A stretch of 52,550 nucleotides of DNA. Origin: Ahrensia sp. GTDB lineage: Bacteria > Pseudomonadota > Alphaproteobacteria > Rhizobiales > Rhizobiaceae. The stretch's first letter is position 1. Each line of letters begins with the position of its first letter. The notes under the pieces are model-generated. The model was given only the letters and a program-made list of their open reading frames with translations, searched no databases and was not told the origin of the DNA. Position numbers and translations under genes: made by a program. The DNA lies in the NCBI GenBank assembly GCA_002706335.1, contig PAKZ01000015.1, forward strand, positions 1-52,550, in the 5' to 3' direction. Of the stretch, positions 1,317-34,962 are shown piece after piece.

Positions 1317-1345
1317 ATCCAAACAGTTGTTAGAAAAATGATCAA
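1317..1345 (-). promoter_or_regulatory. Promoter of paaY-like gene with overlapping TetR-type operator
   Basis: On the minus strand, TTGATC (1340-1345) and TTGGAT (1317-1322) are separated by 17 bp. An imperfect copy of the palindrome lies at 1319-1334 (plus strand CCAAACA-GT-TGTTAGA), overlapping the -10. The arrangement is the same as at 13512 and 31318, which makes this degenerate copy credible. Confidence 0.6.
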
Positions 1346-1370
1346 GCACATCGCGCCCTAATGTAGGATA

Positions 1371-1416
1371 TTGACACGACTTCATTCCGGCATCTAAAAA
1401 TCTAACAATTGATAGA
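1371..1416 (+). promoter_or_regulatory. Promoter and operator of the thiolase/SDR operon
   Basis: TTGACA (1371-1376) is followed after 18 bp by TAAAAA (1395-1400). The palindrome TCTAACA-AT-TGATAGA (1401-1416) follows directly, where it would cover the transcription start. One base departs from perfect symmetry. The thiolase start is 52 bp downstream. Confidence 0.7.
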
Positions 1417-1468
1417 AAATGCGTGGCGCCGGTATCGGAGTGCCCCAAACGAAAAGGGAGCGAGAGAA

Positions 1469-2653
1469 ATGAAGGACAAAGCGTATGTCGCCGGCGTCGG
1501 GATGGTCCCGTTCCAGAAACCTGGGAAATCGGAAAGCTATGACGTGATGGCCGCGACTGCCACGCGCGCCGCGTTGGCCGATGCGGGGCTCGACTATGAC
1601 AAGGTGCAGCAGGCCTATGTGGGCTATGTCTATGGCGACAGCACCTGCGGCCAACGGTCGCTGTATCAGGTCGGCATGACCGGAATTCCGGTCGTGAACG
1701 TGAACAACAACTGCTCGACCGGATCCTCGGCGCTGTTTCTGGCGCGCCAAGCGGTCGAGAGCGGCGCTGTGGACTGCGCCCTTGCGCTGGGTTTCGAGCA
1801 GATGCAGCCCGGCGCGATCGGCGCGATGTTCCACGACCGGGTCAGCCCCTTCGCCTCTTTCGACGAGGAAACCGACGAGCTCGTGGGCAACCCGGAGATC
1901 CCGCTGGCGCTGCGTTATTTCGGCGGCGCCGGCAAGGCGCATATGGAGGAGTTCGGCACCACGCTGGAAACCTTCGCCAAGATCCGCGCTAAGGCCAGCC
2001 GCCACGCCGCCAGGAACCCGGTTGCCCTGTTCCGGCAGGAAGTGACGCCCGAAGAAGTCATGGCGGCCCAGGTCGTCTGGCCGGGCGTGATGACAAGGCT
2101 GATGGCCTGCCCGCCCACCTGTGGCGCGGCCGCGGCGATCATCTGCTCCAAGGAGTTCGCCGACAGACACGGGCTCGACAGCTCGGTGCGGATCGCGGCG
2201 CAGGCGATGACGACGGACGGCCCCGAGACCTTCAACGCCCATGACATGCGCGAGGTGGTCGGCTTCTCGATGGCCAAGCGCGCGGCCGATCAGGTCTACG
2301 AGGCGGCGGGCATCGGGCCGCAGGATATTGACGTGGTCGAGCTGCACGACTGCTTTGCCCATAACGAGCTGATCACCTACGAGGCGCTCGGCCTTTGCGG
2401 GCGCGGCGATGCGGCGAAATTCGTCGATGATGGCGACAACACCTATGGCGGCAAATACGTGACCAACCCGTCCGGCGGTCTGTTGTCCAAGGGGCATCCG
2501 CTGGGGGCGACCGGCCTTGCGCAATGCACCGAGCTTGTCCAGCAGCTGCGCGGCCAGGCCGATGCGCGCCAGGTCGACGGCGCGCGCCTGGCGCTGCAGC
2601 ACAATCTGGGCCTCGGCGGGGCCTGCGTGACCACGCTTTATGAAAAAGCCTGA
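1469..2653 (+). CDS. Thiolase of the SCPx / lipid-transfer-protein class
   Basis: The product has 394 residues and the SCP2-thiolase layout. VNNNCSTGSSALF carries the acylated cysteine (Cys82), and SKGHPLGATG carries the C-terminal active-site histidine; GLGGACVTTLYEK closes the protein. These enzymes cleave 3-ketoacyl-CoA with CoA and in the SCPx branch accept bulky or 2-methyl-branched chains. The start at 1469 has the purine-rich leader GGGAGCGAGAG in front of it. The gene is followed after 24 bp by an SDR dehydrogenase, giving a plausible 3-hydroxyacyl-CoA oxidation and cleavage pair. Unlike the second thiolase-fold gene at 31738, this one keeps the nucleophilic cysteine and should be a true thiolase. 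Confidence 0.92.
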   Translation: MKDKAYVAGVGMVPFQKPGKSESYDVMAATATRAALADAGLDYDKVQQAYVGYVYGDSTCGQRSLYQVGMTGIPVVNVNNNCSTGSSALFLARQAVESGAVDCALALGFEQMQPGAIGAMFHDRVSPFASFDEETDELVGNPEIPLALRYFGGAGKAHMEEFGTTLETFAKIRAKASRHAARNPVALFRQEVTPEEVMAAQVVWPGVMTRLMACPPTCGAAAAIICSKEFADRHGLDSSVRIAAQAMTTDGPETFNAHDMREVVGFSMAKRAADQVYEAAGIGPQDIDVVELHDCFAHNELITYEALGLCGRGDAAKFVDDGDNTYGGKYVTNPSGGLLSKGHPLGATGLAQCTELVQQLRGQADARQVDGARLALQHNLGLGGACVTTLYEKA

Positions 2654-2677
2654 CGAAACGGATCGGGAGGAGACGTC

Positions 2678-3508
2678 ATGACGGGAAAACTCGACGGGCG
2701 CGTGGCGCTGGTTTCGGGGTCGGGCCGGGGGATCGGCCGGGAAATCGCGCTGAAACTGGCCTCGGAAGGGGCGCGCGTGGTGATCAACGATCTGGACGCC
2801 GATCCGGCCAATGAAACCGCCGAGGCGGTGCGCGCGATGGGTGCCGAGGCCGTGGTCTGCGCCGGTAGCGTCACCGAAGACGGGTTCGCCGAACGGTTCA
2901 TCAAGACCGGCGTAGACAGCTTTGGCGGGCTCGATATCATCGTGAACAACGCAGGCTACACTTGGGACAGCGTCGTTCAGAAGATGTCCGACGAACAGTG
3001 GCAGGCGATCATCGACGTCCACCTGACGGCACCCTTCAAGATCCTGCGCGCCGCCCAGCCGGTGATCAGCGCTAAGGCCAAGGAAGAAGCAGCCGCCGGG
3101 CAGGAAGTGTTCCGCAAAGTGGTGAACATTTCGTCCATCGCGGGGACCGGCGGCAATGCCGGTCAGATCAACTATTCCGCCGCCAAGGCAGGCATTCTGG
3201 GGGTCACCCGGACGATGGCCAAGGAATGGGGGCGCTACAAGGTGAATGTGAACGCGGTGGCGTTCGGTCCGATCCGCACCCGCCTGACCGAAGGCAGCGC
3301 AAAGGGTGACAGCACGATTAAGGTCGAGGACAAGGAGATCAAGGTCGGCGTGAATCCCGATCTTCTGTCGCAGATGGAGCGGATGATCCCGCTGGGTCGT
3401 GTGGGCACGCCGCAGGAGGCCGCCGGCGCCGTCTATCTGTTCTGCTCGCCGGAATCGAACTTTATCTCGGGCCAGCACATTATTTGTGGCGGCGGGTTCG
3501 TGATCTAG
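2678..3508 (+). CDS. SDR-family 3-hydroxyacyl-CoA dehydrogenase-like oxidoreductase
   Basis: The 276-residue protein has the classical SDR signature: a glycine-rich NAD(P) loop (SGSGRGIG, residues 13-20), NNAG, and a catalytic Tyr166-xxx-Lys170 in INYSAAKAG. ASP in the VINDLDAD stretch after the second strand suggests NAD preference. It follows the SCPx-type thiolase in the same operon, so oxidation of a 3-hydroxyacyl-CoA before thiolysis is the likely role. The acidic insertion around residues 205-225 (EVKDKEIK-like charge pattern) is longer than in FabG. FabG-like reductase activity is the main alternative. Confidence 0.88.
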   Translation: MTGKLDGRVALVSGSGRGIGREIALKLASEGARVVINDLDADPANETAEAVRAMGAEAVVCAGSVTEDGFAERFIKTGVDSFGGLDIIVNNAGYTWDSVVQKMSDEQWQAIIDVHLTAPFKILRAAQPVISAKAKEEAAAGQEVFRKVVNISSIAGTGGNAGQINYSAAKAGILGVTRTMAKEWGRYKVNVNAVAFGPIRTRLTEGSAKGDSTIKVEDKEIKVGVNPDLLSQMERMIPLGRVGTPQEAAGAVYLFCSPESNFISGQHIICGGGFVI

Positions 3509-3623: not shown

Positions 3624-3660
3624 TTGACTCACTGGCTTCGTAAGCCTAACAGTCGTTAGT
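3624..3660 (+). promoter_or_regulatory. Promoter and autoregulatory operator of the TetR gene
   Basis: TTGACT (3624-3629) and a weak -10, TAACAG (3647-3652), are 17 bp apart. The palindrome CCTAACA-GT-CGTTAGT (3645-3660) overlaps the -10 and ends 26 bp before the TetR start. Two bases depart from the consensus on the outer edges of the arms. Placement directly before the regulator gene suggests autoregulation. Confidence 0.6.
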
Positions 3661-3686: not shown

Positions 3687-4316
3687 ATGGCTGATATCAC
3701 TGCGAGCAAGGTCAACGAGACATCGCGCAGCGCGGTCGGGCGGGATGGCGTGTTGGATATTGCGGCCCGGCTTTTCCGTGAACAGGGCTACGGGTCCGTT
3801 TCGCTCAGAAAAATCGCCGAGGCCGCCGGGATCAAGGCGGGCAGCATATATTACCATTTCGGCTCCAAGGACGAGATCGTTGCGGCGATCCTCGATGCCG
3901 GCATCCAAGCGGTTCACGACCGGATGCGCCAGGCGGTGTCGGCACAGCCGGCCGGCGCAAGCGCCGAGGCCGTCCTGCGCGCCGCGATCGAAGCGCATCT
4001 GCGCGCGCTTCTGGATGTCAGCGATTATTCCTCGGCCAATGTGCGCATCTTCGGGCAGGTTCCACAATCGGTCCGCGATGCCAACCTTCCCACGCGCCGC
4101 GCCTACGAGGCCGAGTGGGACAGCCTGCTGGCGCGGCTCCGCGACAAGGGAGCGCTGAAACCGGATGTAGACATCCGCCGCCTGCGCCTGATGCTGATCG
4201 GCGCTCTCAATGCCACGCTGGAATGGTTCGATCCGAAACGCGGCAGCGCCAATGCGCTATCGCAATCCTATGCCGATGTTTTCCTGCACGGCATCCTAGA
4301 CGATACCGGGGGTTGA
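3687..4316 (+). CDS. TetR-family transcriptional regulator, probable local regulon repressor
   Basis: The protein has 209 residues. An N-terminal TetR DNA-binding domain is clear, with the helix-turn-helix about residues 37-58 (SLRKIAEAAGIKAGSIYYHF). The C-terminal domain lacks recognisable motifs, as usual for ligand-binding domains in this family; acyl-CoA-sensing TetR proteins such as FadR, PsrA and KstR share this architecture. The gene lies four bases before the carboxylase beta gene and heads that operon. It is the only TetR gene in the window, and the repeated TCTAACA-NN-TGTTAGA palindrome occurs before it and before most catabolic operons, so it is the obvious candidate to bind them. 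The ligand is not known. Confidence 0.9.
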   Translation: MADITASKVNETSRSAVGRDGVLDIAARLFREQGYGSVSLRKIAEAAGIKAGSIYYHFGSKDEIVAAILDAGIQAVHDRMRQAVSAQPAGASAEAVLRAAIEAHLRALLDVSDYSSANVRIFGQVPQSVRDANLPTRRAYEAEWDSLLARLRDKGALKPDVDIRRLRLMLIGALNATLEWFDPKRGSANALSQSYADVFLHGILDDTGG

Positions 4317-4319: not shown

Positions 4320-5918
4320 TTGGCGCGACTTGAAACCGCGGTACTGACCGCATCCGAAGTCTTTACCCGCAACCACGCGGCGCAGCGCGCGCGGGTCCAG
4401 ATCCTACGCGACCGCGTCGCCGCGGCAACGGCGGGCGGACGTCCCGATATGGTCGCGCGGCACCGCGAGCGCGGCAAGCTTCTGGTGCGGGAACGGATCG
4501 ACCTGCTGGTCGATCCCGGCACGGCGTTTCTGGAACTGTCGTCGCTGGCCGCTTACGGGCAATACGGGGGCGAGGTGCCCGGCGCCGGGATCGTCACCGG
4601 CATCGGCATCGTCCACGGGTTGCCCTGCATGATGATCGCCAATGACGCCACCGTGAAGGGCGGCTCCTTCTACCACGAGACAGTGCAAAAACACATCCGC
4701 GCCCAGGAAATCGCGGCTGAAAACCGGCTGCCCTGTCTCTATCTGGTGGATTGCGGCGGGGCCTATCTGCCTGAACAGGACCGGGTCTTTCCCGATGCCC
4801 GCCATTTCGGCAATTCCTTTTATCGCCAGACCAACATGTCCGCCAGCGGCCTGCCGCAGATCTCGGCCGTGTTTGGCGGCTGCACGGCGGGCGGGGCCTA
4901 TATCCCGGCGCTGTCGGACGAGGTCATCATGGTGCGCGGCAACGCGCGGATCCATCTGGGCGGGCCCTCGATCGTCAAGGTGGCGATCAACGAAGAGGTC
5001 GATGGCGAAACGCTGGGCGGAGCCGAGATGCATTCGCGTGTTTCGGGCGTGTCCGACCATCTGGCCGAAGATGAGTACCACGCATTGGCACTCATGCGCG
5101 ACATCGTGGCCGAGCTGGGCCAGTCGCGCCCGATGCCGCCCGACGCGCCCCCCGCGCCGCCCGCACACGACCCTGAAGAGCTGCTGGGCGTGGTCAGCGC
5201 CGACCGCAAGCAGCCCTTCGAAATGCGCGAGGTCCTGTTGCGGATGATCGACGCGGGCAAGTTCCGCGAGTTCAAGCCGGGATGGGGCGAGACGCTGGTT
5301 TGCGGCACGGCGCGCATCCACGGCTATCGCGTTGGTATCCTGGCCAACAACGGGGCGCTTTTGTCCGACAGTTCGCTGAAAGGTGCGCAATTCGTGTCGA
5401 TGTGCGATCAGCGCAATATCCCGCTTCTGTTCCTGCACAACATCTCGGGTTTCATGGTCGGCACCGAGGCCGAGCGCGGCGGTATCGCCAAGGACAGCGC
5501 CAAGCTGGTCTATGCCATGTCCGTTGCCAAGGTGCCGCGCCTGTCGGTTCTGCTGGGCGGCTCTTACGGGGCCGGAAACTACGGCATGTGCGGGCGCGGT
5601 TTCGCGCCGAATTTCCTCTTTGCCTGGCCCACGGCGGAACTTGCCACCATGTCCGCGGACATCGCCACCAACGTGATGCTGGAACTGCGCCGCCAGAAGG
5701 GAGGCGAGCCGGAAAAGCTGGCGGCCGACCTTGCGAAGATCGAGGCTGAGGTGCGCGCCCAGTATGGCGAACAGTCCGATCCCTATTACGCCACTTCGCG
5801 GCTTTGGGATGACGGGTTGATCGAACCGGGCCAGACACGCGACATCCTCGGGCTTTGCCTGGCCATTGTCTCTTCGGTGCCCGAGGCCAGGCGCCATACC
5901 CCCGTATTCAGAATGTGA
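4320..5918 (+). CDS. Acyl-CoA carboxylase beta subunit (MCC/geranyl-CoA carboxylase type)
   Basis: A full-length carboxyltransferase of 532 residues. FGGCTAGGAYIPALSDE and GSYGAGNYGMCGRGF mark the two crotonase-fold halves with their oxyanion-hole glycines, and RHRERGKLLVRERI is the usual N-terminal beta-subunit motif. The start is TTG at 4320, directly after the TetR stop, with GGGGGTTGAGGG in front; no good ATG is available close by. Together with the alpha subunit at 6719 it should form a biotin-dependent 3-methylcrotonyl-type carboxylase. The order regulator, beta, hydratase, alpha, dehydrogenase resembles the liu (leucine/isovalerate) and atu (acyclic terpene) operons of pseudomonads, but no HMG-CoA lyase gene is present, so leucine degradation is not established. 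Confidence 0.93.
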   Translation: MARLETAVLTASEVFTRNHAAQRARVQILRDRVAAATAGGRPDMVARHRERGKLLVRERIDLLVDPGTAFLELSSLAAYGQYGGEVPGAGIVTGIGIVHGLPCMMIANDATVKGGSFYHETVQKHIRAQEIAAENRLPCLYLVDCGGAYLPEQDRVFPDARHFGNSFYRQTNMSASGLPQISAVFGGCTAGGAYIPALSDEVIMVRGNARIHLGGPSIVKVAINEEVDGETLGGAEMHSRVSGVSDHLAEDEYHALALMRDIVAELGQSRPMPPDAPPAPPAHDPEELLGVVSADRKQPFEMREVLLRMIDAGKFREFKPGWGETLVCGTARIHGYRVGILANNGALLSDSSLKGAQFVSMCDQRNIPLLFLHNISGFMVGTEAERGGIAKDSAKLVYAMSVAKVPRLSVLLGGSYGAGNYGMCGRGFAPNFLFAWPTAELATMSADIATNVMLELRRQKGGEPEKLAADLAKIEAEVRAQYGEQSDPYYATSRLWDDGLIEPGQTRDILGLCLAIVSSVPEARRHTPVFRM

Positions 5919-5927
5919 GGGCCGGAC

Positions 5928-6722
5928 GTGACCGAGAGCTATGAAACGATCCTTGTCGAAACAGATGCGCGCGGCGTCGCCACGGTAACGCTGAACCGCC
6001 CGGACAAGCACAATGCCCTGAACGGCGATCTGATCGCCGAGCTTTCGGACGCGGCCGAAAGGCTGGCCGCCGATGACACGGTGCGCATCGTGGTGCTGAC
6101 CGGCAACGGCAAGAGCTTCTGTGCCGGGGGGGATTTCAACTGGTTCGCCTCCAACGTCGAAAAATCCCGCGCCGAGCGGGTCGAACAGAGCGCCACGCTG
6201 GCGCAATTGCTGCGCCGCCTTGATACCCTGACCAAACCGCTGATCGGACGGATCAACGGACCGGCCTACGGCGGCGGGGTCGGCATGATATCGGTCTGCG
6301 ACTACACGATTGGTGCCGAAGGGTCGCGCTTTGGTCTGACCGAGGTAAAGCTGGGCCTTCTGCCTGCCAACATCTCGCCCTACCTGGTGGCCCGCATCGG
6401 CAAGGTGCATTCCCGCGAGACCATGCTGTCGGGCGCGCTCTTCGACACCGCGCGCGCCGAACGGATCGGGCTCCTGACCGAGGTCGTTGCCCCCGGCGAT
6501 CTGGACGACGCTGTAGAGCGGGTGGTCCGCGACCACCTTCAGGCCGCGCCGGGCGCGGTGGCCGACACCAAGGCGCTGATCGCCTATGTCGCGTCCCACG
6601 ATCTGGATACCAACATGATCTATACCGCCGACCGTCTGGCCGACGCCTGGGAAACAGAGGAAGGCATCGAGGGCATCAACAGCTTCATTAGCAAGGGCGT
6701 GCCCTCCTGGCGGGTGAAATGA
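5928..6722 (+). CDS. Enoyl-CoA hydratase (methylglutaconyl-CoA hydratase-like)
   Basis: The 264-residue crotonase has LNRPDKHNALN, the oxyanion-hole segments GKSFCAGGDF and GPAYGGGVGM, and the active-site loop LTEVKLGLLPA. The start is GTG at 5928, nine bases after the beta-subunit stop, and the stop overlaps the start of the alpha subunit (ATGA). By position it corresponds to LiuC or AtuE, which hydrate the 3-methylglutaconyl-type product of the carboxylase. That assignment is from context; the crotonase fold alone does not fix the substrate. Confidence 0.9.
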   Translation: MTESYETILVETDARGVATVTLNRPDKHNALNGDLIAELSDAAERLAADDTVRIVVLTGNGKSFCAGGDFNWFASNVEKSRAERVEQSATLAQLLRRLDTLTKPLIGRINGPAYGGGVGMISVCDYTIGAEGSRFGLTEVKLGLLPANISPYLVARIGKVHSRETMLSGALFDTARAERIGLLTEVVAPGDLDDAVERVVRDHLQAAPGAVADTKALIAYVASHDLDTNMIYTADRLADAWETEEGIEGINSFISKGVPSWRVK

Positions 6723-8722
6723 GCTTTACCCGCGTTCTGATCGCCAACCGCGGAGAGATCGCCCGGCGCATCCAGCGCGGGTGCCGCAGGTTGGGGCTGG
6801 AAAGCGTGGCGGTGTTTTCGGAGGCCGACCGCGACGCACCCTTCGTGACCGAGGCCGATCACGCCGTGTGCGTCGGTGGGGCCGCGCCGTCGGAGAGTTA
6901 TTTGAACGTCGATGCCATCCTGGACGCCGCCCGTGCGGCCGGGGCAGGGGCGGTGCATCCGGGCTATGGCTTTTTGTCGGAGAATGCCGCCTTTGCCGCT
7001 GCTGTCGAGGCGGCGGGCCTCGTGTTCATCGGGCCGGGACCTGACGCGATCGCCCGCATGGGATCCAAGATCGAGGCCAAGGCCGCCGCCGAAGCCGCGG
7101 GCGTACCCGTCCTGCCCGGCTATCGCGGCGCCGACCAGTCGGATGCGCGATTGCTGGCCGAGGCGGAGGCGCTCGGCACGCCGTTTCTGGTCAAGGCTAG
7201 CGCGGGCGGCGGCGGGCGCGGGATGCGGCTTGTCACCGACCTGAGGAACGCTGCAGAAGCCATCGCCGGCGCCCGGGCCGAGGCGAAAGGCGCCTTTGGC
7301 GACGCGACGGTGTTTCTGGAACGCTACGCCCCCCGCGCGCGCCATGTCGAGGTGCAGGTGCTCGGCGACAGCCACGGCACCGTGCTGCATCTGGGCGATC
7401 GCGACTGCTCGCTCCAGCGAAACCACCAGAAGCTGATCGAAGAGGCTCCCGCCGCCGATCTGCCCGAGGCTGTGCGCAACGACATGCGTGCGGCGGCGGT
7501 GCGGTTGGCGCAGGCGATCGGTTATCGCTCCGCCGGAACGGTGGAATACCTCTATGACCCCGGGCATGGCGAATACTACTTTCTTGAGATGAACACCCGG
7601 TTGCAGGTGGAACACCCCGTGACCGAGGCCATCACCGGCATCGACCTGGTCGAATGGCAGTTGCGCATCGCGCGGGGCGAGCCGTTGACGCTGACGCAAA
7701 CGGATGTGCAGTTTGACGGGCACGCCATTGAAATCCGCATCGCCGCCGAAAATCCGGCCGAGAATTTCCGCCCCGAGACGGGCCGGATCACCCTCTGGGC
7801 GCCGCCCTCAGGCGTGCGGCTGGACAGCGGGGTGGAGGCAGGATCGGTCGTCGGCTACCATTACGATTCAATGCTGGCCAAGCTCATCGTCCATGCGCCG
7901 GACCGGGCCGGGGCGATCCGTCAGGCAGTCGCCGCGATCGACACCTTCGTCGTGGGCGGCGTGGGGTTGAACCTGGCCTATCAGCGCGCGCTTCTGATCC
8001 ATCCCGATTTCCGGGCGTTCCGGCATCACACGTCGGGCTTGGCCGAAATGTTCCCCGACGGCTGGACGCACCCGGCCCCCGAGGCGCAGGACATGGCGCT
8101 CGCCGCGATGGCGTTGCATCTGCATCTCACCCCGGCGGGCGCATCGCCGTGGGAAAGCCTCGGGTCATGGCGGCTCACCGCGCCCGCAGGGCGAGCCGGC
8201 GCGGTGTCTTATTGGGACGCAGCCGACGAAGAGCCGATCCGCATGACCGGCTCAGGGGCAGAGCTTGCCGCCGGGCTGCCGGACGGCCAAACAGTCGCTG
8301 CCGAGGTCGCCGCCTTGGCCGGGGACCGCCTGCACGGACGTATCGGCGGCGTCCGGTTCTCGCGCATCGCTTATGTCGTGCGCGCGCCCGGTCACTGGCG
8401 GGTGCACCTGCAAACCCCTGCCGGAATGACCGCGACAGACCTGCGCACGCTGGAGGACCGGCACCTGAGCCGCGCCGCGGGCGGGTCCGCCGGAGCCGAC
8501 ACCCTGGTGGCACCGATGCCGGGCGCCGTGGCCGAGATTCGTGTCGCGCCCGGCGACCGTGTCGCCGCCGGCGACACGCTGGTGGTGCTGGAAGCGATGA
8601 AGCTCTTGCAGAGCCTGCGGGCGCCGGTCGCGGGCGTTGTGGCTGAAATCTATTGCGCGCCGGGCGACACTGTCGCCGGGCACGCCCCCCTCGTCAAACT
8701 CGATCCGGAGGACAAGAGATGA
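6719..8722 (+). CDS. Acyl-CoA carboxylase alpha subunit (biotin carboxylase plus biotin carrier)
   Basis: The 667-residue protein begins with the biotin carboxylase domain (VLIANRGEIARRI; ATP-grasp loop KASAGGGGRGMR; FLEMNTRLQVEHPVTE) to about residue 450. A linker domain follows, and a C-terminal biotinyl domain carries the lysine acceptor in VLEAMKLLQ (Lys628). Length and order match MCC/geranyl-CoA carboxylase alpha subunits. It overlaps its neighbours by ATGA at both ends, indicating translational coupling with the hydratase and the following dehydrogenase. It is the only biotin-carrying protein seen in the window and may have to serve both beta subunits. Confidence 0.95.
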   Translation: MSFTRVLIANRGEIARRIQRGCRRLGLESVAVFSEADRDAPFVTEADHAVCVGGAAPSESYLNVDAILDAARAAGAGAVHPGYGFLSENAAFAAAVEAAGLVFIGPGPDAIARMGSKIEAKAAAEAAGVPVLPGYRGADQSDARLLAEAEALGTPFLVKASAGGGGRGMRLVTDLRNAAEAIAGARAEAKGAFGDATVFLERYAPRARHVEVQVLGDSHGTVLHLGDRDCSLQRNHQKLIEEAPAADLPEAVRNDMRAAAVRLAQAIGYRSAGTVEYLYDPGHGEYYFLEMNTRLQVEHPVTEAITGIDLVEWQLRIARGEPLTLTQTDVQFDGHAIEIRIAAENPAENFRPETGRITLWAPPSGVRLDSGVEAGSVVGYHYDSMLAKLIVHAPDRAGAIRQAVAAIDTFVVGGVGLNLAYQRALLIHPDFRAFRHHTSGLAEMFPDGWTHPAPEAQDMALAAMALHLHLTPAGASPWESLGSWRLTAPAGRAGAVSYWDAADEEPIRMTGSGAELAAGLPDGQTVAAEVAALAGDRLHGRIGGVRFSRIAYVVRAPGHWRVHLQTPAGMTATDLRTLEDRHLSRAAGGSAGADTLVAPMPGAVAEIRVAPGDRVAAGDTLVVLEAMKLLQSLRAPVAGVVAEIYCAPGDTVAGHAPLVKLDPEDKR

Positions 8723-9885: not shown

Positions 9886-9930
9886 ATGTACGCGCCATGG
9901 TTATGGGAAACTATTGAAAGGAAGAACGGC

Positions 9931-11027: not shown

Positions 11028-11057
11028 ATGACTTGAGATTCTAACAGATGTTAGAAT
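11028..11057 (+). promoter_or_regulatory. Promoter and perfect-palindrome operator of the CoA-transferase operon
   Basis: The operator TCTAACA-GA-TGTTAGA (11040-11055) is a perfect inverted repeat and extends one further base pair on each side. ATGACT (11028-11033) and TAGAAT (11052-11057) are 18 bp apart, so the operator fills the spacer and covers the -10. The gene start is 40 bp downstream. Confidence 0.75.
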
Positions 11058-22634: not shown

Positions 22635-22687
22635 CCCCCGGCTATCCGCTGGCCGAAAGCGGTTCTCAGATCAAGATAGGCAGGAAC

Positions 22688-23464: not shown

Positions 23465-23475
23465 AGGAGACCACT

Positions 23476-24258: not shown

Positions 24259-24302
24259 CACGGTCGAGACCACATCAAGAGACTTATGGAGAGACCACAG
24301 TT

Positions 24303-27684: not shown

Positions 27685-27713
27685 TTGCTGAAAAATTAAA
27701 CATTTGTTAGATT
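27685..27713 (+). promoter_or_regulatory. Promoter and operator of the acyl-CoA dehydrogenase gene
   Basis: TTGCTG (27685-27690) and TAGATT (27708-27713) are 17 bp apart. The palindrome copy TTAAACA-TT-TGTTAGA (27696-27711) has one perfect arm and one degenerate arm and overlaps the -10 exactly as at 13512. The gene starts 34 bp downstream. Confidence 0.65.
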
Positions 27714-27747: not shown

Positions 27748-28905
27748 ATGTCGCTGATCACGAATTCCTCGGCCTGGGCTTCGGACGAACACAGGATGTT
27801 CGCCGAAACGACGCGCAAGCTGTTCGACGCCGAGATGGCGCCGAATGTCGACAAATGGGCCGAACAGGGGATCGTCGACCGCGAATTCTGGCGCAAGGTT
27901 GGAGAACAGGGCGTCATGGGCGGTTCCATCGCCGAGGAATATGGCGGGTTCGGCGGCGGCATCGGTTTCGACGCGCTTACTGTCTACGAACAGGGGCGCA
28001 CCGGCGACACCGGCTGGGGGTACGGTATCCAGAGCATCGTAATCCATTACCTGGACGCCTATGGCAGCGAAGAGCAGAAGAAGAAGTGGCTGCCCCGGCT
28101 GATCAGCGGCGAGAGCGTGGCGGCGATCGCCATGACCGAACCGGGAACGGGTTCGGACCTGCAGAACGTCCAGACCTATGCGGAGAAGGACGGCAATCAC
28201 TACAAAATCAACGGCTCGAAGATATTCATCACCAACGGGCACACCGCCGACATCATCGTGATCGTGACCAAGACCGACCGCAGCGCCGGGGCCAAGGGCG
28301 TGTCGCTGATCGTCCTGGAAACCGAGGACGCCGAAGGGTTTCGCCGCGGGCGAAACCTGAAGAAACTCGGCATGAAGGGGTCGGATACGGCCGAGCTGTT
28401 CTTCGAGGATGTGCGGGTGCCGACGGCGAACCTGCTGGGCCAGGAGGAGGGGCAGGGGTTCTATCAACTGATGAAGCAACTACCCTGGGAACGGCTGATG
28501 ATCGGCATCACCGCGCTTGGCTTCATCGACTTCGCCATCGCCGAGACGGTGAAATACGTCCAGGACCGCAAGGCGTTCGGCAGCCGGATCATGGATTTTC
28601 AGAACACCCGGTTCAAGCTGGCGGAATGCAAGACGAAGGTCGAATTGCTGCGCAGCTTCGTCAATGACGGGATCGCCCGCCTGGAAACCGGCAGGCTGGA
28701 TGCAGCTACCGCGTCGATGGCGAAATGGTGGGGCAGCCAGACCCAGAACGAGGTCATGCACGAATGCCTGCAACTGCATGGCGGCTATGGCTTCATGATG
28801 GAGTTCCCGATCGCACGGCTCTACGCCGACAGCCGGGTGCAGATGATCTATGGCGGCACCAACGAGATCATGAAGGAACTGATCGCGCGGTCGATAGACA
28901 TCTGA
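27748..28905 (+). CDS. Acyl-CoA dehydrogenase
   Basis: The product has 385 residues. MTEPGTGSDLQNVQT, SKIFITNG and LQLHGGYGFMMEFPIARLYADSR are the standard family motifs. It is a single-gene unit with its own operator, and its stop lies 24 bp from the stop of a convergent CoA-transferase gene. GC content returns here to the high level of the 1-10 kb block after the IS remnants. Confidence 0.94.
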   Translation: MSLITNSSAWASDEHRMFAETTRKLFDAEMAPNVDKWAEQGIVDREFWRKVGEQGVMGGSIAEEYGGFGGGIGFDALTVYEQGRTGDTGWGYGIQSIVIHYLDAYGSEEQKKKWLPRLISGESVAAIAMTEPGTGSDLQNVQTYAEKDGNHYKINGSKIFITNGHTADIIVIVTKTDRSAGAKGVSLIVLETEDAEGFRRGRNLKKLGMKGSDTAELFFEDVRVPTANLLGQEEGQGFYQLMKQLPWERLMIGITALGFIDFAIAETVKYVQDRKAFGSRIMDFQNTRFKLAECKTKVELLRSFVNDGIARLETGRLDAATASMAKWWGSQTQNEVMHECLQLHGGYGFMMEFPIARLYADSRVQMIYGGTNEIMKELIARSIDI

Positions 28906-28929: not shown

Positions 28930-30096
28930 TTAGTCGTCGCCGGCCCCCAGGATCTCGGCGGTATGCTCGCCCAGGCGGGGCGCCGGGCGGTGGTCGGACC
29001 GCGCCGGCGTGGCCGAGAACCGCACCGGCGGGCGTGTCGCCCAGATCGTGCCCTCGCTGGGGTGGTCCAGCCGCTGAAAGAAGCTTGTCGCGGCAAGATG
29101 CGGATCGGCTGGAAGATCGGCGAGGGTGCGCACCGGCATCGCCGGGATGTCGGCCTGTTGCATCAGCTCCATCCATTCATCGGTGGTCCGGGTCGGTGCC
29201 AGTTCGGCCACCATGTCGTAGACCGCGCCGATATTGCGGCTGCGCGCATCCATGTCCGTCACCCAAGGATGATCGACCATGTCGGTGCGGCCGACCGCCT
29301 GGAAAAAGCGTGCCCATTGGACATTGGTATAGGGCAGGATGGTGATGTAGCCGTCCCGTGTCTGCACTGGTCGGCGGTGCGGCACCAGCATACGGGCATA
29401 GCCGAAATCCTGCGGAGTTTCCTCGAACGTGGCACCGTCGAGATGCTCGACCAGAAGGAAGGAAGAAAGCGTTTCGAACATCGGCACTTCGACATGCTGT
29501 GCCTCGCCGGTGCGTTCGCGGTGAAACAGCGCCGCCATCACCGCATAGGCCGCAGTCACGCCGCCCAGCTTGTCGGCCATGATTGTCGGCGCATAGGCAG
29601 GCGGCGCGTCGGGGTCGCGCAGGGCGGCAAGGCTGGCCAGCCCCGAAACCGACTGCACGATGTCGTCGAAGGCGGGCCGATCGGCATAGGGCCCGTCCTG
29701 GCCGTAGCCTGTGGCCGAAACGGTGATCAGGTTCGGGTTCTCGCGCCGCAGGGTCTCGGGGTCGAGAGACAGGCGCGCGAGCGCGGCGGGCCGGATGCTC
29801 GAAATCATCACATCCGCATCGGCAAGCAACCTGCGCAGGCGACCCTGATCGTCTACGGTCTTTAGATCGAGAACGACGCTGCGTTTGTTGCGGTTGGTGC
29901 CGAGAAAGGCCGCGCCCATTTTCTTGTTCCGCGACGGCTGGACCTGCCGCAACAGATCGCCTTCCGGACTTTCGACTTTGATCACATCGGCGCCCAGCTC
30001 ACCGAGCATCTGTGTCGCCAGCGGGCCGAACACAACCGAGGTCAGGTCGACAATTCTTACCCCGCCAAGAATTGATGCCTTGCGTTCTTTCTTCAT
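28930..30096 (-). CDS. Family III CoA-transferase (CaiB/BaiF)
   Basis: The 388-residue protein has GPLATQMLGELGADVIKVE, ATGYGQDGPY and the catalytic-aspartate segment TIMADKLGG (Asp175), close to Asp169 of formyl-CoA transferase. The N-terminus KKERKASILGG is slightly longer than usual. Its start overlaps the stop of the next minus-strand CoA-transferase, so the two are co-transcribed from the divergent promoter at 31295-31323. Substrate unknown. Confidence 0.92.
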   Translation of the reverse strand: MKKERKASILGGVRIVDLTSVVFGPLATQMLGELGADVIKVESPEGDLLRQVQPSRNKKMGAAFLGTNRNKRSVVLDLKTVDDQGRLRRLLADADVMISSIRPAALARLSLDPETLRRENPNLITVSATGYGQDGPYADRPAFDDIVQSVSGLASLAALRDPDAPPAYAPTIMADKLGGVTAAYAVMAALFHRERTGEAQHVEVPMFETLSSFLLVEHLDGATFEETPQDFGYARMLVPHRRPVQTRDGYITILPYTNVQWARFFQAVGRTDMVDHPWVTDMDARSRNIGAVYDMVAELAPTRTTDEWMELMQQADIPAMPVRTLADLPADPHLAATSFFQRLDHPSEGTIWATRPPVRFSATPARSDHRPAPRLGEHTAEILGAGDD

Positions 30097-31259
30097 TTCT
30101 GCAGAATACTTTCCTCAGCAGTCTCACCGAACTCTGCCCGGATCGCCGCGCCATCCGCGTCGAAGGCGGGCGAAGGGCCGAGCCCGGGGTTTCCGCCGCT
30201 GCGCCTGATCGGCGGCGCGGGCAGACGGATTTCGCCGGCGGACGACGCTATCGTCGCACGGTCGAGTTGGGGATGTTCGGACAAGGCCGCGACATCGTTG
30301 ACCGCGCCATAGGCGATATCGGCTTGCGCAAGCAGATCGAGCATATCGGGGCGGTCATGCGCAGCAAAGGCGGCTTCGATCATCGGCTGAAGTATGCCCC
30401 GGTTGCTGTTGCGGCTGTCATTGCTGACAAAGCGCGGATCTGTCGCCAATTCTGGCCGTGAAAGCACTGCCGCGCAGAACCGCCCCCACTCTCGTTCATT
30501 CTGGATCGATATCACGATCTGTTCGCCGTCGCGGCAGGTATATGCGCCGTAGGGGCATATTACTGGGTGGCTGAGACCAACCCGAGGGGTTGGGCGGTCT
30601 GCGTAGTCGTGAAACACAAGGGGTACCGCCATCCAGTCTGCAAGCGTATCGAACATTGCAACCGAAACTCCGCTTCCCTTCGCTGTGCGGTTGCGTTCGA
30701 ACAGTGCCTCGCAGATCGCGGCATGGGCCGTCATGCCGGTCGCGATATCGCAAACCGACACTCCCACCCGGCCGGGACCGTCTGGCGTACCGGTGACCGA
30801 TGCCAGGCCGCTTTCGCATTGGATCAGAAGGTCATAGGCTTTGGCGTTCCGCATCGGTCCATCGGAGCCATATCCGGTGATGTCACAGGTGATCAGCCGT
30901 GGAAACCGTTCGCGAAGCGTCGCCGAATCGAGCCCGAACTTTTCCAGCGCTCCGGGTAGTAGGTTCTGGATGAACACATCAGCGCGTTCCAGCATCGAGA
31001 GCAGAAGCGCTCGGTCCTCGCCGGACTTGATGTCCAGAGCAACCGATTCCTTGCCGCGGTTCAGCCAGATAAAATAGGCGCTTTCGCCGTGTGCTGCGGT
31101 GTCGTAGCCGCGGGCGAAGTCGCCGGCCCCCTTGCGCTCGATCTTGATCACCCGGGCGCCGGCGTCGGCCAGCCGCGATGTGCAGAACGGCGCCGCGACG
31201 GCCTGTTCCAGCGCGACGATCAGCGTGCCCGCGAGAGGGCCCGAATTCGGAGGAGTCAT
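30093..31259 (-). CDS. Family III CoA-transferase, of a type seen with C5-dicarboxylate (itaconate/mesaconate) acids
   Basis: About 388 residues. The opening LIVALEQAVAAPFCTSRLAD with GARVIKIERKGAGDFARGYD, plus NRGKESVALDIK and SVTGTPDGPGRVGVSVCDIATGM (two adjacent stretches), belong to the CaiB/BaiF branch that in my recollection includes itaconate and mesaconyl-CoA transferases. Asp in VCDIATG is the presumed acyl-accepting residue. The ATG at 31259 was chosen because AGGAG is absent further upstream and it gives the family N-terminus; longer versions would run into the promoter. The HTD2-like hydratase and CitE-like lyase at 40708-42362 would fit the same C5 pathway. Confidence 0.85.
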   Translation of the reverse strand: MTPPNSGPLAGTLIVALEQAVAAPFCTSRLADAGARVIKIERKGAGDFARGYDTAAHGESAYFIWLNRGKESVALDIKSGEDRALLLSMLERADVFIQNLLPGALEKFGLDSATLRERFPRLITCDITGYGSDGPMRNAKAYDLLIQCESGLASVTGTPDGPGRVGVSVCDIATGMTAHAAICEALFERNRTAKGSGVSVAMFDTLADWMAVPLVFHDYADRPTPRVGLSHPVICPYGAYTCRDGEQIVISIQNEREWGRFCAAVLSRPELATDPRFVSNDSRNSNRGILQPMIEAAFAAHDRPDMLDLLAQADIAYGAVNDVAALSEHPQLDRATIASSAGEIRLPAPPIRRSGGNPGLGPSPAFDADGAAIRAEFGETAEESILQK

Positions 31260-31286: not shown

Positions 31287-31323
31287 TTGAAAAAAATCTA
31301 ACATCTGTTAGAAACAAGGTCAA
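31287..31323. promoter_or_regulatory. Divergent promoters sharing one perfect palindromic operator
   Basis: The operator TCTAACA-TC-TGTTAGA (31297-31312) is a perfect inverted repeat. On the minus strand TTGACC (31318-31323) and TAGATT (31295-31300) are 17 bp apart and overlap it, driving the two CoA-transferases. On the plus strand TTGAAA (31287-31292) and TAGAAA (31309-31314), 16 bp apart, could drive the DUF35 operon. One bound repressor would silence both directions. Confidence 0.72.
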
Positions 31324-31356: not shown

Positions 31357-31734
31357 ATGCAAGAAATTACCGGATCGGATCAGACATTCCGGCGCGCGCT
31401 GGCGAATGGCGAGATCGCGCTCCCAAAATGCGACAGCTGCGGAAAATTTCATTTCTTCCCGCGCGTCGTCTGTCCGCATTGCCATGAAACGGCGTTGTCT
31501 TGGCGCAGGGCAAGCGGCCGCGGAGAGGTTTACACCACGACCGTAGTCCGCCGCAGGTCCGAGCAGGGCGGGGATTACAACATTTGCATGGTCGAGCTGG
31601 AAGAAGGCGTGCGGATGATGAGTCGGGTCGAGGGGATCGCGCCTGCGGATGTAACGATCGGTATGGCTGTCACCGTCTATGTCGGCGAGATCGACGGACA
31701 GCCGGCGGTGCTGTGCAGGCCGGTGGAGGGCTGA
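31357..31734 (+). CDS. DUF35 / OB-fold zinc-ribbon protein, partner of thiolase-fold enzymes
   Basis: The 125-residue protein has a rubredoxin-like zinc ribbon with Cys25, Cys28, Cys39 and Cys42 (CDSCG ... CPHC) followed by an OB-fold (GEVYTTTVV ... MVELEEGVRMMSRV). Such proteins form complexes with SCP2-type thiolases; in actinobacterial steroid degradation the DUF35 domain of ChsH2 is the required partner of the aldolase Ltp2. The thiolase-fold gene starts three bases after its stop, so the same complex is likely here. Confidence 0.9.
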   Translation: MQEITGSDQTFRRALANGEIALPKCDSCGKFHFFPRVVCPHCHETALSWRRASGRGEVYTTTVVRRRSEQGGDYNICMVELEEGVRMMSRVEGIAPADVTIGMAVTVYVGEIDGQPAVLCRPVEG

Positions 31735-31737
31735 GCG

Positions 31738-32889
31738 ATGACGGGAGATTTGCGGGGAAAGGCTGCCATCGTGGGCACTGGCCATGCCGGATTCGGCGAG
31801 GCGCGTGGCCTGACCGCCTATGACGTCATGGCCCAGGCGGGGCTGGCGGCGGTGGCCGACGCGGGGCTGTCGCTGGCCGATGTCGACGGGCTGTTCTGCA
31901 CCATGATGGAAGACAGCATGCCGGCGCTGATGGCGGCCGAGTATCTTGGTATCCAGCCGCGATTCGTGGATGGCACGATGACGGGCGGGTCGTCCTTCGT
32001 GAATTACTTGACCTCGGCGGCGATGGCGCTCGATGTCGGGCTGTGCGACGTGGCGCTGATCGTGTATGGCTCGAACCAGAGAACCGCGTCGGGGCGGCTG
32101 GTGACTGCTTCGCGCCCGCCAGAGTACGAGGCCCCGTACAAGCCGCGCTATCCGATATCTGCCTATGCCATGGCAGCGGCGCGACACATGCACGAATACG
32201 GCACCACCCGTGAACAATTGGCTGACGTGGCCGTAGCCGCTCGCGCCTGGGCGCAGCACAACCCGGAAGCGTTTGAGCGGGGCCCGTTGAGCCGCGAAGA
32301 CGTGCTCGCCGCACGCATGGTGGGCGATCCGCTGACGGTGCGCGACTGTTGCCTGGTGACCGACGGCGGCGGTGCAATCGTGATGGTGCGTGCAGACCGT
32401 GCCAGGGATTGCCCGAAGCCGCCAGTCTATCTGCTGGGCAGCGCCGCGGCCAGTTCGCACCGGCAGATATCCCAGATGCGGGATTTCAGCACTACGGCGG
32501 CCCGCGAATCCGGCGCGCAAGCCTTCGCGGCGGCCGGAGTGGCGCCGGGCGATATAGACCTGGTTGAGCTCTATGACGCGTTCACGATCAATACAATCCT
32601 GTTCCTGGAGGATCTCGGGTTCTGCGCCAAGGGCGAAGGGGGCGCCTTTGTCGAGGGTGGACGCATCGCCCCGGGCGGGGTGCTGCCGGTGAACACCAAT
32701 GGCGGCGGGCTGTCCTGCGTGCATCCGGGGATGTACGGCATCTTTACCGTGATCGAAGCCGCGCGGCAGATCCGTGGCGACGCGCCCGGACAGCAGCTAG
32801 AGAATATCGACCTGGCGCTTGCCCACGGCAATGGCGGCGTTCTGTCCAGCCAGGTCACGGCGATCTTGGGATCGGGAAACACGCTGTAG
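31738..32889 (+). CDS. Thiolase-fold protein lacking the nucleophilic cysteine; Ltp2-type aldolase candidate
   Basis: The 383-residue protein has the SCP2-thiolase fold (HGNGGVLSSQ near the end), but where the true thiolase at 1469 has NNNCSTGSS it reads DGTMTGGSS, with no cysteine. Ltp2, a retro-aldolase of steroid side-chain degradation, shows the same loss and relies on two tyrosines. Here Tyr279 (ELYDAF) and Tyr333 (HPGMYG) stand at comparable positions and spacing. The preceding DUF35 gene and the following MaoC hydratase complete the set used for hydration and retro-aldol cleavage. The aldolase call is inference from these features. Confidence 0.85.
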   Translation: MTGDLRGKAAIVGTGHAGFGEARGLTAYDVMAQAGLAAVADAGLSLADVDGLFCTMMEDSMPALMAAEYLGIQPRFVDGTMTGGSSFVNYLTSAAMALDVGLCDVALIVYGSNQRTASGRLVTASRPPEYEAPYKPRYPISAYAMAAARHMHEYGTTREQLADVAVAARAWAQHNPEAFERGPLSREDVLAARMVGDPLTVRDCCLVTDGGGAIVMVRADRARDCPKPPVYLLGSAAASSHRQISQMRDFSTTAARESGAQAFAAAGVAPGDIDLVELYDAFTINTILFLEDLGFCAKGEGGAFVEGGRIAPGGVLPVNTNGGGLSCVHPGMYGIFTVIEAARQIRGDAPGQQLENIDLALAHGNGGVLSSQVTAILGSGNTL

Positions 32890-32911
32890 GGCGTTCCAGG
32901 GAGGAAGAAAC

Positions 32912-33769
32912 ATGCCGCTGGATTTCGAGGCGCTTTCGAATTGGGATTTCGAGGAAATCGAACAGACGCTGAGCGAAAGAGACACGATTCTCTATGCGCT
33001 CGGGCTGGGTTTCGGCGAAGACCCTACCGACAGGAAGGAGTTGGCCTATGTCTACGAGGACGGGCTGAAGGCGGTGCCGTCCATGGCGGTCACGATGGGC
33101 TATCCGGGGTTCTGGCTGCGCGATCCGAGAACCGGGGTGAACTGGCGGAAGGTTCTGCATGGCGAGCAGTGGCTGGACATCTACAAGCCGCTGCCGGTGA
33201 AGGGCAATATCGTCGGCCGCAGCAAGATCGACTTCATCTCCGACAAGGGGGAGGGCAAGGGCGCCGTCATCTATCAAAGCCGCGAGATCATCGACGCCGA
33301 TACGGGCGAAAAGCTGGCCCGCGTAGCGATGTCGGCCTTCTGCCGTGGTGACGGCGGCTTCGGCGGAGAAAACCTCCCCGGACCGACGCCTGCCGAGCTG
33401 CCCGACCGCGCACCCGATTATGTCTGTGACATTGAAACGCTGCCGCGGCAGGCGTTAATCTATCGGCTCAGCGGGGATTACAACCCGCTGCACGCCGACC
33501 CGGATGTGGCGCTCTCGATCGGGTTCGACCGGCCGATCCTGCATGGGCTGGCCACCTATGGCTTGGCGGCGCGCGCGATCCTCAAGTCGCTGCTGGACTA
33601 CGACGCCAGCAGTCTCGTCGGGCTGGATGTGCGGTTCTCGGCGCCGGTCTATCCGGGTGAAACCGTGCGGTTCGAGATCTGGGAACACGGGGGCGAGGCC
33701 CGGTTCCGCGCCTCGGTCCCTGTACGCGAGGTGGTGGTCCTGAACAATGGGGCCGCCAGGTTCGCGTGA
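32912..33769 (+). CDS. MaoC-type double-hotdog (R)-specific 2-enoyl-CoA hydratase
   Basis: About 285 residues in two hotdog halves. The C-terminal half has the hydratase-2 motif RLSGDYNPLHADPDVA with the catalytic Asp and His, and FDRPILHGLATYG. This pattern is that of eukaryotic MFE-2 hydratase 2, which makes (3R)-hydroxyacyl-CoA. The start at 32912 has GGGAGGAAG in front. Placed after the aldolase-like gene, it would supply the 3-hydroxyacyl-CoA to be cleaved. Confidence 0.92.
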   Translation: MPLDFEALSNWDFEEIEQTLSERDTILYALGLGFGEDPTDRKELAYVYEDGLKAVPSMAVTMGYPGFWLRDPRTGVNWRKVLHGEQWLDIYKPLPVKGNIVGRSKIDFISDKGEGKGAVIYQSREIIDADTGEKLARVAMSAFCRGDGGFGGENLPGPTPAELPDRAPDYVCDIETLPRQALIYRLSGDYNPLHADPDVALSIGFDRPILHGLATYGLAARAILKSLLDYDASSLVGLDVRFSAPVYPGETVRFEIWEHGGEARFRASVPVREVVVLNNGAARFA

Positions 33770-33780
33770 GGGCGGGGAAG

Positions 33781-34914
33781 ATGCGGCCGCTTGACGATAT
33801 CCTGGTGCTCGATTTCAGCACCCTTCTTCCGGGTCCGATGGCGACGTTAATGTTGGCCGAGGCTGGCGCTGAGGTGATCAAGTTCGAACGCCCCGGTATA
33901 GGCGAGGACGCGCGCCATACGTATCCCAAATTAAATGGTGAAAGCATCGGCTTTGCCGTGCTGAACCATGGGAAGCGGTCGGTAGCAATTGATCTGAAGG
34001 TAGAGGGCGCGGTGGAATCCCTGCGCCCCCTGATCGAGAAGGCCGATGTGCTGGTCGAACAGTTCCGCCCGGGCGTCATGGATCGGCTGGGGCTGGGGTA
34101 TGACGCCCTTCGCCGGATCAATCCGGGGCTCATCTATTGCTCGATCACCGGCTATGGCCAGACCGGGCCAAAGGCGGCGTCCGCCGGGCACGATCTGAAT
34201 TATGCAGGCGATTCGGGCGTACTGTCGCTCAGCCGGGGCCCCGACGATAATCCGACGATGCCATCTGGTCTGATCGCCGATGTTGGCGGCGGCACCTATC
34301 CAGCCGTGATGAACATCCTGCTGGCGCTTCGGGCTCGCGACCGGAACGGGCAGGGGATCCATCTGGATATCGCGATGGCCGAGGGCGCCTTTGCCTTTGC
34401 TTATTGGGCTCATGCCGAAGGCGTGATCGCTGGCCAGGACATAGACAGCGGCGGCAGTCGGCTGACAGGCGGGCTTGCGCGCTACCGGCTCTATACTGCG
34501 GGCGACGGACGGCAGGTCGCGGTTGGCGCGCTGGAAGAGAAATTCTGGCAGGCCTTCTGCGACGTGATCGGCCAGCCGGCCGATCTGCGCGACGATTGGG
34601 TTGATCCGGAAACCTGCGCCGCAGAAGTGGCGCGGCGTCTGGCAGAGAGGCCTTCGTCCGATTGGGCGCCGCTTCTGGAGGCGGCGGATTGTTGCTGTAC
34701 GGTTGTGAAAACCCCTGCCGAGGCCGCCGCAGACCCGCATTTCGCGGCGCGCGGGGTGTTCGGCCGGAAGCTGGCGATTGCCGGCACCAAGGTATCGGCC
34801 CTGCCATTGCCAATCGCCCCCGGATTTCGTGGTCCGGCGGATCAAATCGGTCGCGCGCCATCTTTGGGAGAAGACAATGCGCGCCATGGTGTGGTGGAAC
34901 TTGAGCCGAAATGA
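33781..34914 (+). CDS. Alpha-methylacyl-CoA racemase (AMACR/MCR)
   Basis: About 377 residues of the family III CoA-transferase fold, but with the racemase active site. His137 (AGHDLNY), Asp167 (IADVGGG) and Glu252 (ALEEKFW) are spaced 30 and 115 residues from the histidine, exactly as His126, Asp156 and Glu241 of Mycobacterium tuberculosis MCR. The enzyme epimerises 2-methyl-branched acyl-CoAs so that stereospecific oxidases can act. ATG 33781 (GCGGGGAAG in front) is chosen over GTG 33766, which overlaps the previous stop. Its presence is the best single pointer to a 2-methyl-branched substrate. Confidence 0.92.
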   Translation: MRPLDDILVLDFSTLLPGPMATLMLAEAGAEVIKFERPGIGEDARHTYPKLNGESIGFAVLNHGKRSVAIDLKVEGAVESLRPLIEKADVLVEQFRPGVMDRLGLGYDALRRINPGLIYCSITGYGQTGPKAASAGHDLNYAGDSGVLSLSRGPDDNPTMPSGLIADVGGGTYPAVMNILLALRARDRNGQGIHLDIAMAEGAFAFAYWAHAEGVIAGQDIDSGGSRLTGGLARYRLYTAGDGRQVAVGALEEKFWQAFCDVIGQPADLRDDWVDPETCAAEVARRLAERPSSDWAPLLEAADCCCTVVKTPAEAAADPHFAARGVFGRKLAIAGTKVSALPLPIAPGFRGPADQIGRAPSLGEDNARHGVVELEPK

Positions 34915-34920
34915 ATCCCG

Positions 34921-34962
34921 TTGACGCATGGACTTTCGGGCATTATTCTAACATTTGTTAGA
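34921..34962 (+). promoter_or_regulatory. Promoter and perfect-palindrome operator of the transglutaminase-headed operon
   Basis: TTGACG (34921-34926) and TATTCT (34944-34949) are 17 bp apart. The operator TCTAACA-TT-TGTTAGA (34947-34962) is a perfect inverted repeat that overlaps the end of the -10 and the likely transcription start. The first gene starts 19 bp downstream with GGGAG as ribosome site. Confidence 0.75.

Follow-up and report, generated by a model that had tools for sequence, protein, structure and literature searches.

A conserved palindrome at promoters of a plasmid-borne acyl-CoA catabolic island is probably an operator shared by two builds of TetR regulator

We analysed a 52,550-nucleotide stretch of Ahrensia sp. 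DNA (contig PAKZ01000015.1 of assembly GCA_002706335.1, hereafter the window), which is the whole of one contig (C15) of a 5.115-Mb genome in 46 contigs, and the 16-bp palindrome TCTAACANNTGTTAGA that recurs in it upstream of acyl-CoA catabolic genes. The palindrome is probably the operator of a clade of TetR_C_24-type repressors that would shut off a large catabolic island. A preliminary description of the window had listed eight copies of 16 bp; we found all eight at exactly those coordinates, three of them (11040, 31297 and 34947) with perfect 7-bp arms.

At the left end, the putative operator at 1319..1334 (-) precedes a leftward gene for a PaaY-like hexapeptide protein (520..1143, -; 288.7 bits, below the PaaY cut-off of 319.6), with TTGATC 17 bp before TTGGAT, and a site stands there in many relatives. 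The copy at 1401..1416 (+), supported by the motif scan and by relatives, heads an operon for a lipid-transfer (SCP2-type) thiolase and an SDR (1469..3508, +; likely ATG at 1469). At 3645..3660 (+) lies the putative autoregulatory operator of a single TetR gene (3687..4316, +; 209 aa), which is also the head of the carboxylase operon downstream of it (4320..10509, +), encoding a carboxyltransferase, an enoyl-CoA hydratase, biotin carboxylase/biotin carboxyl carrier protein (BCCP), an acyl-CoA dehydrogenase and BioY. This BioY transporter gene (9886-10509) follows the TetR and carboxylase genes, tying biotin uptake to biotin-dependent carboxylases.

Farther right, putative operators head operons for a class III CoA-transferase family protein and an acyl-CoA dehydrogenase (site 11040..11055, +; genes 11097..13474, +) and for an importer (site 13523..13538, +, with TTGACC 17 bp before TAGATT; genes 13579..25987, +), the latter comprising an SDR, a branched-chain-type ABC importer, an AMP-ligase, two binding proteins, two enoyl-CoA hydratases and the beta and alpha subunits of an electron transfer flavoprotein (ETF). 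A further copy (27696..27711, +, with TTGCTG 17 bp before TAGATT) precedes an acyl-CoA dehydrogenase gene (27748..28905, +), and a transposase-like open reading frame (ORF; 26998-27486) lies inside the island between this copy and the ETF genes. The putative operator at 31297..31312 (no strand assigned) sits between divergent genes and is flanked on either side by a -35-like hexamer; to its left lie genes for two class III CoA-transferase family proteins (28930..31259, -), and to its right genes for a ChsH2-type OB-fold protein, a thiolase, a MaoC hydratase and a class III CoA-transferase family protein (31357..34914, +). The last copy (34947..34962, +) precedes genes for a transglutaminase-fold protein, MaoC, two acyl-CoA dehydrogenases, an enoyl-CoA hydratase and a Pfam-less protein (34982..40475, +); the syntenic Sagittula gene of the Pfam-less protein (39273-40475, +) is annotated as phenylacetate--CoA ligase.

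As had been described, every copy is placed upstream of a gene and none inside one; the copy at 31297 overlaps only the 5' end of a mechanical ORF (30093-31304, -). A later start is likely there, because an in-frame ATG lies at 31259 and the Sagittula orthologue has the site in a 104-bp gap between genes. Against TCTAACANNTGTTAGA, the copies at 11040, 31297 and 34947 have no mismatch, those at 1401 and 13523 one, those at 1319 and 27696 two, and that at 3645 three; at three mismatches this list is complete for the window. We found eight copies compared with a mean of 0.50 and a maximum of 2 in 100 dinucleotide shuffles, and the core CTAAC-N4-GTTAG at ≤1 mismatch occurs seven times compared with 0.27 expected, 27696 being the one lost.

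In the genome, sites at ≤2 mismatches (n = 11) are confined to two contigs, the window with seven and contig C4 with four (12930, 25886, 34532 and 40972), which together make up 1.9% of the genome. At three mismatches the scan is unspecific (50 places compared with 170 for the reversed pattern, which is commoner at this level for compositional reasons). Hence, the copy at 3645 rests on conservation in relatives and not on its score. Across 20 relatives (~87 Mb) picked for having no close TetR relative, only two sites occur at ≤1 mismatch, both in one genome, compared with nine in this genome, and the reversed pattern occurs at 18 places there compared with two for the motif. In four records the motif has 31 sites, compared with a maximum of 2 and a mean of 0.2 for permuted palindromes (≤60 random permutations). 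The motif thus does not occur at similar density at random positions, and the shuffles, the genome scan, the permuted palindromes and the 20 relatives together rule out chance or composition as the origin of the sites. Hence, the eight sites are real and far beyond chance. It is extremely improbable that they belong to a non-TetR global factor or a repeat element, because the rest of the genome lacks sites at ≤2 mismatches and the sites move together with TetR genes among plasmids and contigs in several orders. The preliminary description counted eight operon heads; the sites total at least 12, several of them between divergent genes, so the heads number more than eight.

C4 and the window are neighbours by synteny with plasmid p5 of Sagittula sp. 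MA-2, where the genes run in the order AtuA, biotin carboxylase, BCCP, carboxyltransferase, PaaY-like protein, lipid-transfer protein, SDR, TetR, carboxyltransferase and further; the end of C4 and the start of the window both fall within this run. Between the AtuA-side site and the equivalent of 1319 this genome has 7,234 bp, on the assumption that its contigs abut; plasmid W01 has 7,164 bp, W09 7,119 bp and W03 10,013 bp. A gap of up to a few kb between C4 and the window is therefore possible, since W03 is the closest plasmid in sequence. W03 (NZ_CP114787.1, 116602-126630) carries ~2.8 kb extra between neighbouring operators at the place where the contigs of this genome break.

C4 encodes AtuA (PF07287; 41746-43665, with a site ~0.8 kb upstream), two biotin carboxylases, five acyl-CoA dehydrogenases, a second branched-chain-type importer with an AMP-ligase, and a double TetR. 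To these the window adds another carboxylase module, SCP2-type and ChsH2-linked thiolases, MaoC hydratases, class III CoA-transferase family proteins, ETF and the first importer. The class III CoA-transferase family includes alpha-methylacyl-CoA racemases, and an HMG-CoA lyase is annotated on p5. This gene set fits the breakdown of methyl-branched, terpene-like isoprenoid acids, a substrate predicted from pathway knowledge. The island is carried on plasmids in Rhodobacterales, Roseibium and Nitratireductor. On C4 the AMP-ligase is split over two ORFs (L017:7989-8696 and L017:8703-9515), possibly by a frameshift or an assembly error, and is a single gene in p5. On p5 an IS5 transposase gene (L067:18443-19287) separates an operator copy from the nitronate monooxygenase gene that this copy may have served.

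The TetR gene at 3687 had been taken as the only one. No other TetR was found in the window, but C4 encodes a fused double TetR, and the promoter of that gene has a site copy too. The single protein has TetR_N and TetR_C_24 above the Pfam cut-offs; the double protein (ORF 34095-35954) has two stretches of each, all above the cut-offs, and its start is probably near 34593, ~45 bp past the site at 34532, which gives ~453 aa. Across five proteins, the halves of the double TetR are 42-47% identical to each other and 34-41% identical to the single TetR. The recognition helices nearly coincide: KAGSIYYHF in the single TetR, EAGSIYYHF and EAGSVYYHF in the two halves of the double TetR of this genome, and KAGSVYYHF in the second half of four plasmid copies. 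In a tree of 43 rows, 17 single orthologues form one clade (100/98), and the N halves and the C halves of the double proteins form one clade each (100/99 and 100/100). These clades group with the TetR units of genome G045, one of which is also double, and the single TetRs of genomes G005 and G035 branch outside; several branches are long and one row (L162) was read through a stop, so the deeper joins are unsure.

To assess the conservation of the site, we kept the best 80 of 182 confirmed relatives of the window TetR from one genome-contig scan (55-99% identity, many of them close kin). All 80 kept loci have a copy within 300 bp before TetR with one to four mismatches, and 76 of them have an exact CTAAC-N4-GTTAG in the nearest 110 bp; the central positions 8 and 9 vary, and in one locus (L107) the better of two matches is 236 bp from TetR and the weaker 56 bp. 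Because a copy stands upstream of TetR in every kept locus, a TetR operator is strongly supported by comparison, and the predicted TetR-type regulation and autoregulation are supported.

Plasmids extend this pattern. Sites at ≤2 mismatches occur in 12 of 14 plasmid records, 11 with 8-12 each and one (W02, Frigidibacter) with three, compared with 0-2 per record for the reversed pattern; this set covers 12 of the 17 listed plasmids with TetR identity ≥64% (H6, H8, H10, H12 and H17 being left out). In p5, all eight tested sites lie outside annotated genes, although the unannotated share of the stretch is 6%; the plasmid gene table (PLSDB) is incomplete, so that a place outside annotated genes is not proof of noncoding DNA, and a ninth site (51815) lies beyond the stretch analysed. 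Plasmid W11 (NZ_CP030943.1) has two perfect operators twice at the same spacing (1634/5299 and 200811/204476), which suggests a duplicated segment. The Frigidibacter plasmid pcai42C (L070) has type I-E CRISPR-Cas genes at 2496-10863 as well as a single-TetR carboxylase operon.

To determine which regulator reads the sign, we used records that carry one build without the other. Four new double-TetR plasmid records were searched out of 25 listed. Three of them (W15, W16 and W18) have a double TetR and no single orthologue on the plasmid, the best matches being the double's own halves (35-40%), and each keeps 10 sites at ≤2 mismatches, four of them perfect; at three mismatches they have 13, 12 and 13 sites, compared with 5, 7 and 5 for the reversed pattern. 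The fourth, W17, likewise has a double without a single on its plasmid, with four sites at one mismatch (at three mismatches five, compared with four reversed), and its strain also carries p5. The reverse case is W02: of the two builds this plasmid carries only the single TetR, and it retains the site of that gene as well as two perfect ones elsewhere.

Since plasmids cannot exclude another TetR gene elsewhere in the cell, whole genomes were examined. Among 385 genomes of the class, 10 match the double query and 21 the single query at E 1e-40, two sets that overlap, the queries being kin. Genome G402 has two double TetRs and, in a search at E 1e-15, one other, distant TetR. Of its six sites, three cluster within 4 kb next to one of the doubles, one of them ~57 bp upstream of that gene; the cluster is located between genes that encode a CoA-ligase-like protein, SDRs and a hydratase. 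In G325, which encodes a double TetR and two single homologues, a series of sites surrounds the double. A search at E 1e-15 found no double TetR in G005 or G035, each of which has a single one. The 61-kb contig that bears the TetR of G005 holds all six sites of that genome, close to genes for acyl-CoA dehydrogenase, CoA-transferase, hydratase and ETF; in G035, six of nine sites share a contig with the TetR. Both sites of G045 are on one contig with a TetR, one of them ~120 bp before it. Nine of 19 genomes with more distant single homologues were searched, and in five (G101, G254, G347, G117 and G341) a site lies within ~115 bp of the TetR gene. Since single-only and double-only records alike keep the sign, both TetR builds probably read it. 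The simplest reading of these comparisons is that the specificity is old in this clade, kept by both builds and drifting in distant members.

Several observations weigh against this reading, beginning with the room that plasmid records leave for the other regulator. No site at ≤2 mismatches was found in the Polaromonas (W13) and Cupriavidus (W14) records, whose TetRs are 45 and 38% identical, nor by the TetR gene in the other four of the nine genomes (G061, G087, G157 and G383). The only site of G060 is on a different contig from its TetR, and the sites of G040 are at least 11 kb from theirs. In whole genomes the reversed pattern is often or usually commoner than the motif; hence, the argument there is position by the TetR gene and not number. 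The second double TetR of G402 has no adjoining site, and Mce3R, the one protein of two TetR units for which we found a structure, binds a non-palindromic operator (PMC11667970).

These last two points agree with an alternative in which the single TetR alone binds the palindrome and the double TetR regulates something else, its gene being one more target; the copy before the single TetR in every kept locus and the site clusters of G005 and G035 are as this alternative predicts. We consider it unlikely, though not negligible, since W15, W16 and W18 keep their sites without a single TetR, and since G402, with two doubles and no close single, has a site by one double and two nearby. In the converse alternative, the double TetR alone rules the regulon and the single TetR is a local regulator of the carboxylase operon with a variant operator. 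In its favour, the site at the single TetR gene does differ consistently from the catabolic sites at the outer pair (positions 1 and 16), and 3645 is the poorest match in the window. However, W02 keeps two perfect sites elsewhere on a plasmid with the single TetR alone, T1 and A16 occur at the TetR promoter of the single-only genomes G254 and G347, and the recognition helices of the two builds match; we judge this alternative very unlikely.

The 16-bp palindrome holds as described, but the fuller operator is longer: stacking 83 sites at ≤2 mismatches from nine sources (the two island contigs and eight plasmids, six of them partial) gave WWTCTAACANNTGTTAGAWW. The 16-bp consensus of this stack is biased to the search pattern, and the flanks and the TTG signal are free of that bias. 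The two bases on each flank are A or T in 83/83 and 82/83 sites (64/64 and 63/64 of non-redundant sites). At 50 of 83 sites a TTG stands 11 or 10 bases ahead of the operator when the site is read in one or both orientations, compared with a mean of 7.4 and a maximum of 21 for other offset pairs; for the 64 non-redundant sites the values are 39, 5.8 and 16. The right half, TAGAWW, is thus a -10-like box with TTG at 16-17 bp spacing, and a second TTG peak near -26 fits a register with the left half over -10, as at 34947.

The promoter orientation matches the adjoining gene at 1319 (-), 13523 (+), 27696 (+) and C4:12930 (-, 18 bp), and the promoter-like geometry runs in both directions at 31297 and C4:40972. 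The copies at 1401 and 11040 are without the TTG geometry in this register, and 3645 is below the stacking cut. A sigma-70 consensus scan of 1150-3720 gave nothing at the three sites there; the geometry appeared only on stacking. TAGAWW is a modest -10 box, a further point on the opposing side. Since the operator lies over the -10-like region, the likely mechanism is occlusion of RNA polymerase. TetR-family activators exist, and the TetR proteins here could be activators or dual regulators. We hold this to be a shade less likely even than a regulon ruled by the double TetR alone, since an operator that overlaps the -10-like region, with TTG 16-17 bp upstream, is in a repressor's place, and since most characterised TetR proteins are repressors (PMC3511530).

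Individual promoters depart from the consensus in conserved ways. In all 10 records in which AtuA was found (17 stretches searched), the AtuA-side site reads TCAAACA-NN-TGTTAGA and keeps one orientation. At the single TetR's promoter, position 1 of the site is C in 73/80 and position 16 is T or G in 74/80, compared with T1 in 71 and A16 in 74 of the 83 stacked sites, which were selected for similarity. Promoter-specific departures conserved beside variable central bases suggest set affinities, a signal that kinship inflates.

The preliminary description had one regulator controlling the island. One operator and one catabolic regulon remain from that proposal, but the fused double TetR on C4 probably shares the regulon. 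In the model that we propose, the window TetR would bind the palindrome as a homodimer and repress the island and itself, and the double TetR, with two recognition helices almost identical to one another and to that of the single TetR, would probably bind the same operator as a single-chain pseudo-dimer. With the left half of the operator filling the promoter spacer and the right half forming the -10 box, bound repressor would block RNA polymerase (for both directions of transcription at some divergent sites), and a pathway acyl-CoA would probably release it. We consider this model as a whole, with an operator shared in the TetR_C_24 clade, repression of the island by occlusion and release by acyl-CoA, to be likely on the strength of the comparisons above. 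More tentatively, and with somewhat less than even confidence, a homodimer and a covalent double TetR, whose halves may hold different ligands, would together make one -10-box operator, with its conserved promoter-specific departures, a graded two-input switch that is mobile on plasmids.

KstR2 and KstR are TetR repressors of CoA-dependent lipid catabolism, and KstR2 is a PDB match of the window TetR; the operators of both have other half-sites or spacing. The operator had been set apart from that of PaaR, which fails for the PaaR of Thermus thermophilus (TTHA0973): its site, CNAACGNNCGTTNG (Sakamoto et al., as quoted in PMC6651687), shares half-site and spacing. The two systems have in common a TetR-type repressor of an acyl-CoA catabolic regulon, a CNAAC half-site and a 4-bp spacing; the selected consensus given in the same source, AACnAACGTTnGTT, differs in spacing. 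Some sites lean toward the PaaR pattern, with G at position 7 in 5/83 and C at position 10 in 12/83. In contrast to PaaR, position 7 here is A in 77/83, the outer flanks are conserved, the pathway is another and there is a second, fused regulator. Thermus PaaR targets the phenylacetate genes paaABCDE, and a PaaY-like protein is among those scanned here. At one mismatch the PaaR pattern has two matches in the window, a number that does not exceed the chance expectation; both belong to the present set of sites. The architecture is similar to that of PaaR, and the pattern seems not to be the same.

AtuR of Pseudomonas represses the atu cluster for acyclic terpene utilisation, which contains AtuA, and AtuA is on C4 here. 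However, AtuR is reported to bind two 13-bp repeats, AGCAAGCGCTTGG (PMC9973270), and this operator has no match at ≤2 mismatches in the window, so that an AtuR-type operator was rejected for this stretch. By architecture, the operator is nearest to that of Thermus PaaR and not to that of AtuR, as judged from the sequences and the reported sites. The nearest in kind to the double TetR is Mce3R of Mycobacterium tuberculosis, with two TetR units in one polypeptide; Mce3R (9b7y) is the best PDB sequence match of the window TetR and only the fifth for the double TetR. It is described as having two nonidentical helix-turn-helix motifs and 25-bp non-palindromic sites and as linked to cholesterol and lipid-transport genes (PMC11667970); the double TetR here seems to differ from it, its two recognition helices being alike and the associated sites palindromic. 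LiuQ, FadP and Burkholderia PaaR also regulate acyl-CoA catabolism, the first two being TetR proteins or listed beside them (PMC5343134; PMC2770484).

Two further gene groups lie in the window. The panB and panC genes of the pantoate pathway stand beside an ETF-quinone oxidoreductase gene (43046-44751), a CoA-supply pair adjoining a CoA-hungry island; no operator copy was found at this stretch. Near the contig end, a LuxR-type receptor, a LuxI-type synthase and a TraM-like protein are encoded in a row (48827-50938), a plasmid-style quorum-sensing module outside the regulon.

In the open-access literature, which our search covered in part, we found no published report of this regulon or of the two-repressor design, no paper with the operator letters or alternative spellings of them, nothing fitting on atu or isoprenoid catabolism in roseobacters and, besides the Mce3R work, nothing fitting on double TetR proteins. 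The architecture of a TetR repressor regulon is known from Thermus PaaR; what appears new is the predicted use of one promoter-embedded operator by two repressor builds on a mobile island. With these results a large island of many marine Rhodobacterales, Roseibium and other Alphaproteobacteria, on which our searches found no study, gains an operator, a regulon and a pair of candidate regulators. They offer a handle on its substrate, through the acyl-CoA that would release the repressor, and they provide a natural setting in which to ask what advantage a fused double TetR may have over a homodimer at the same site.

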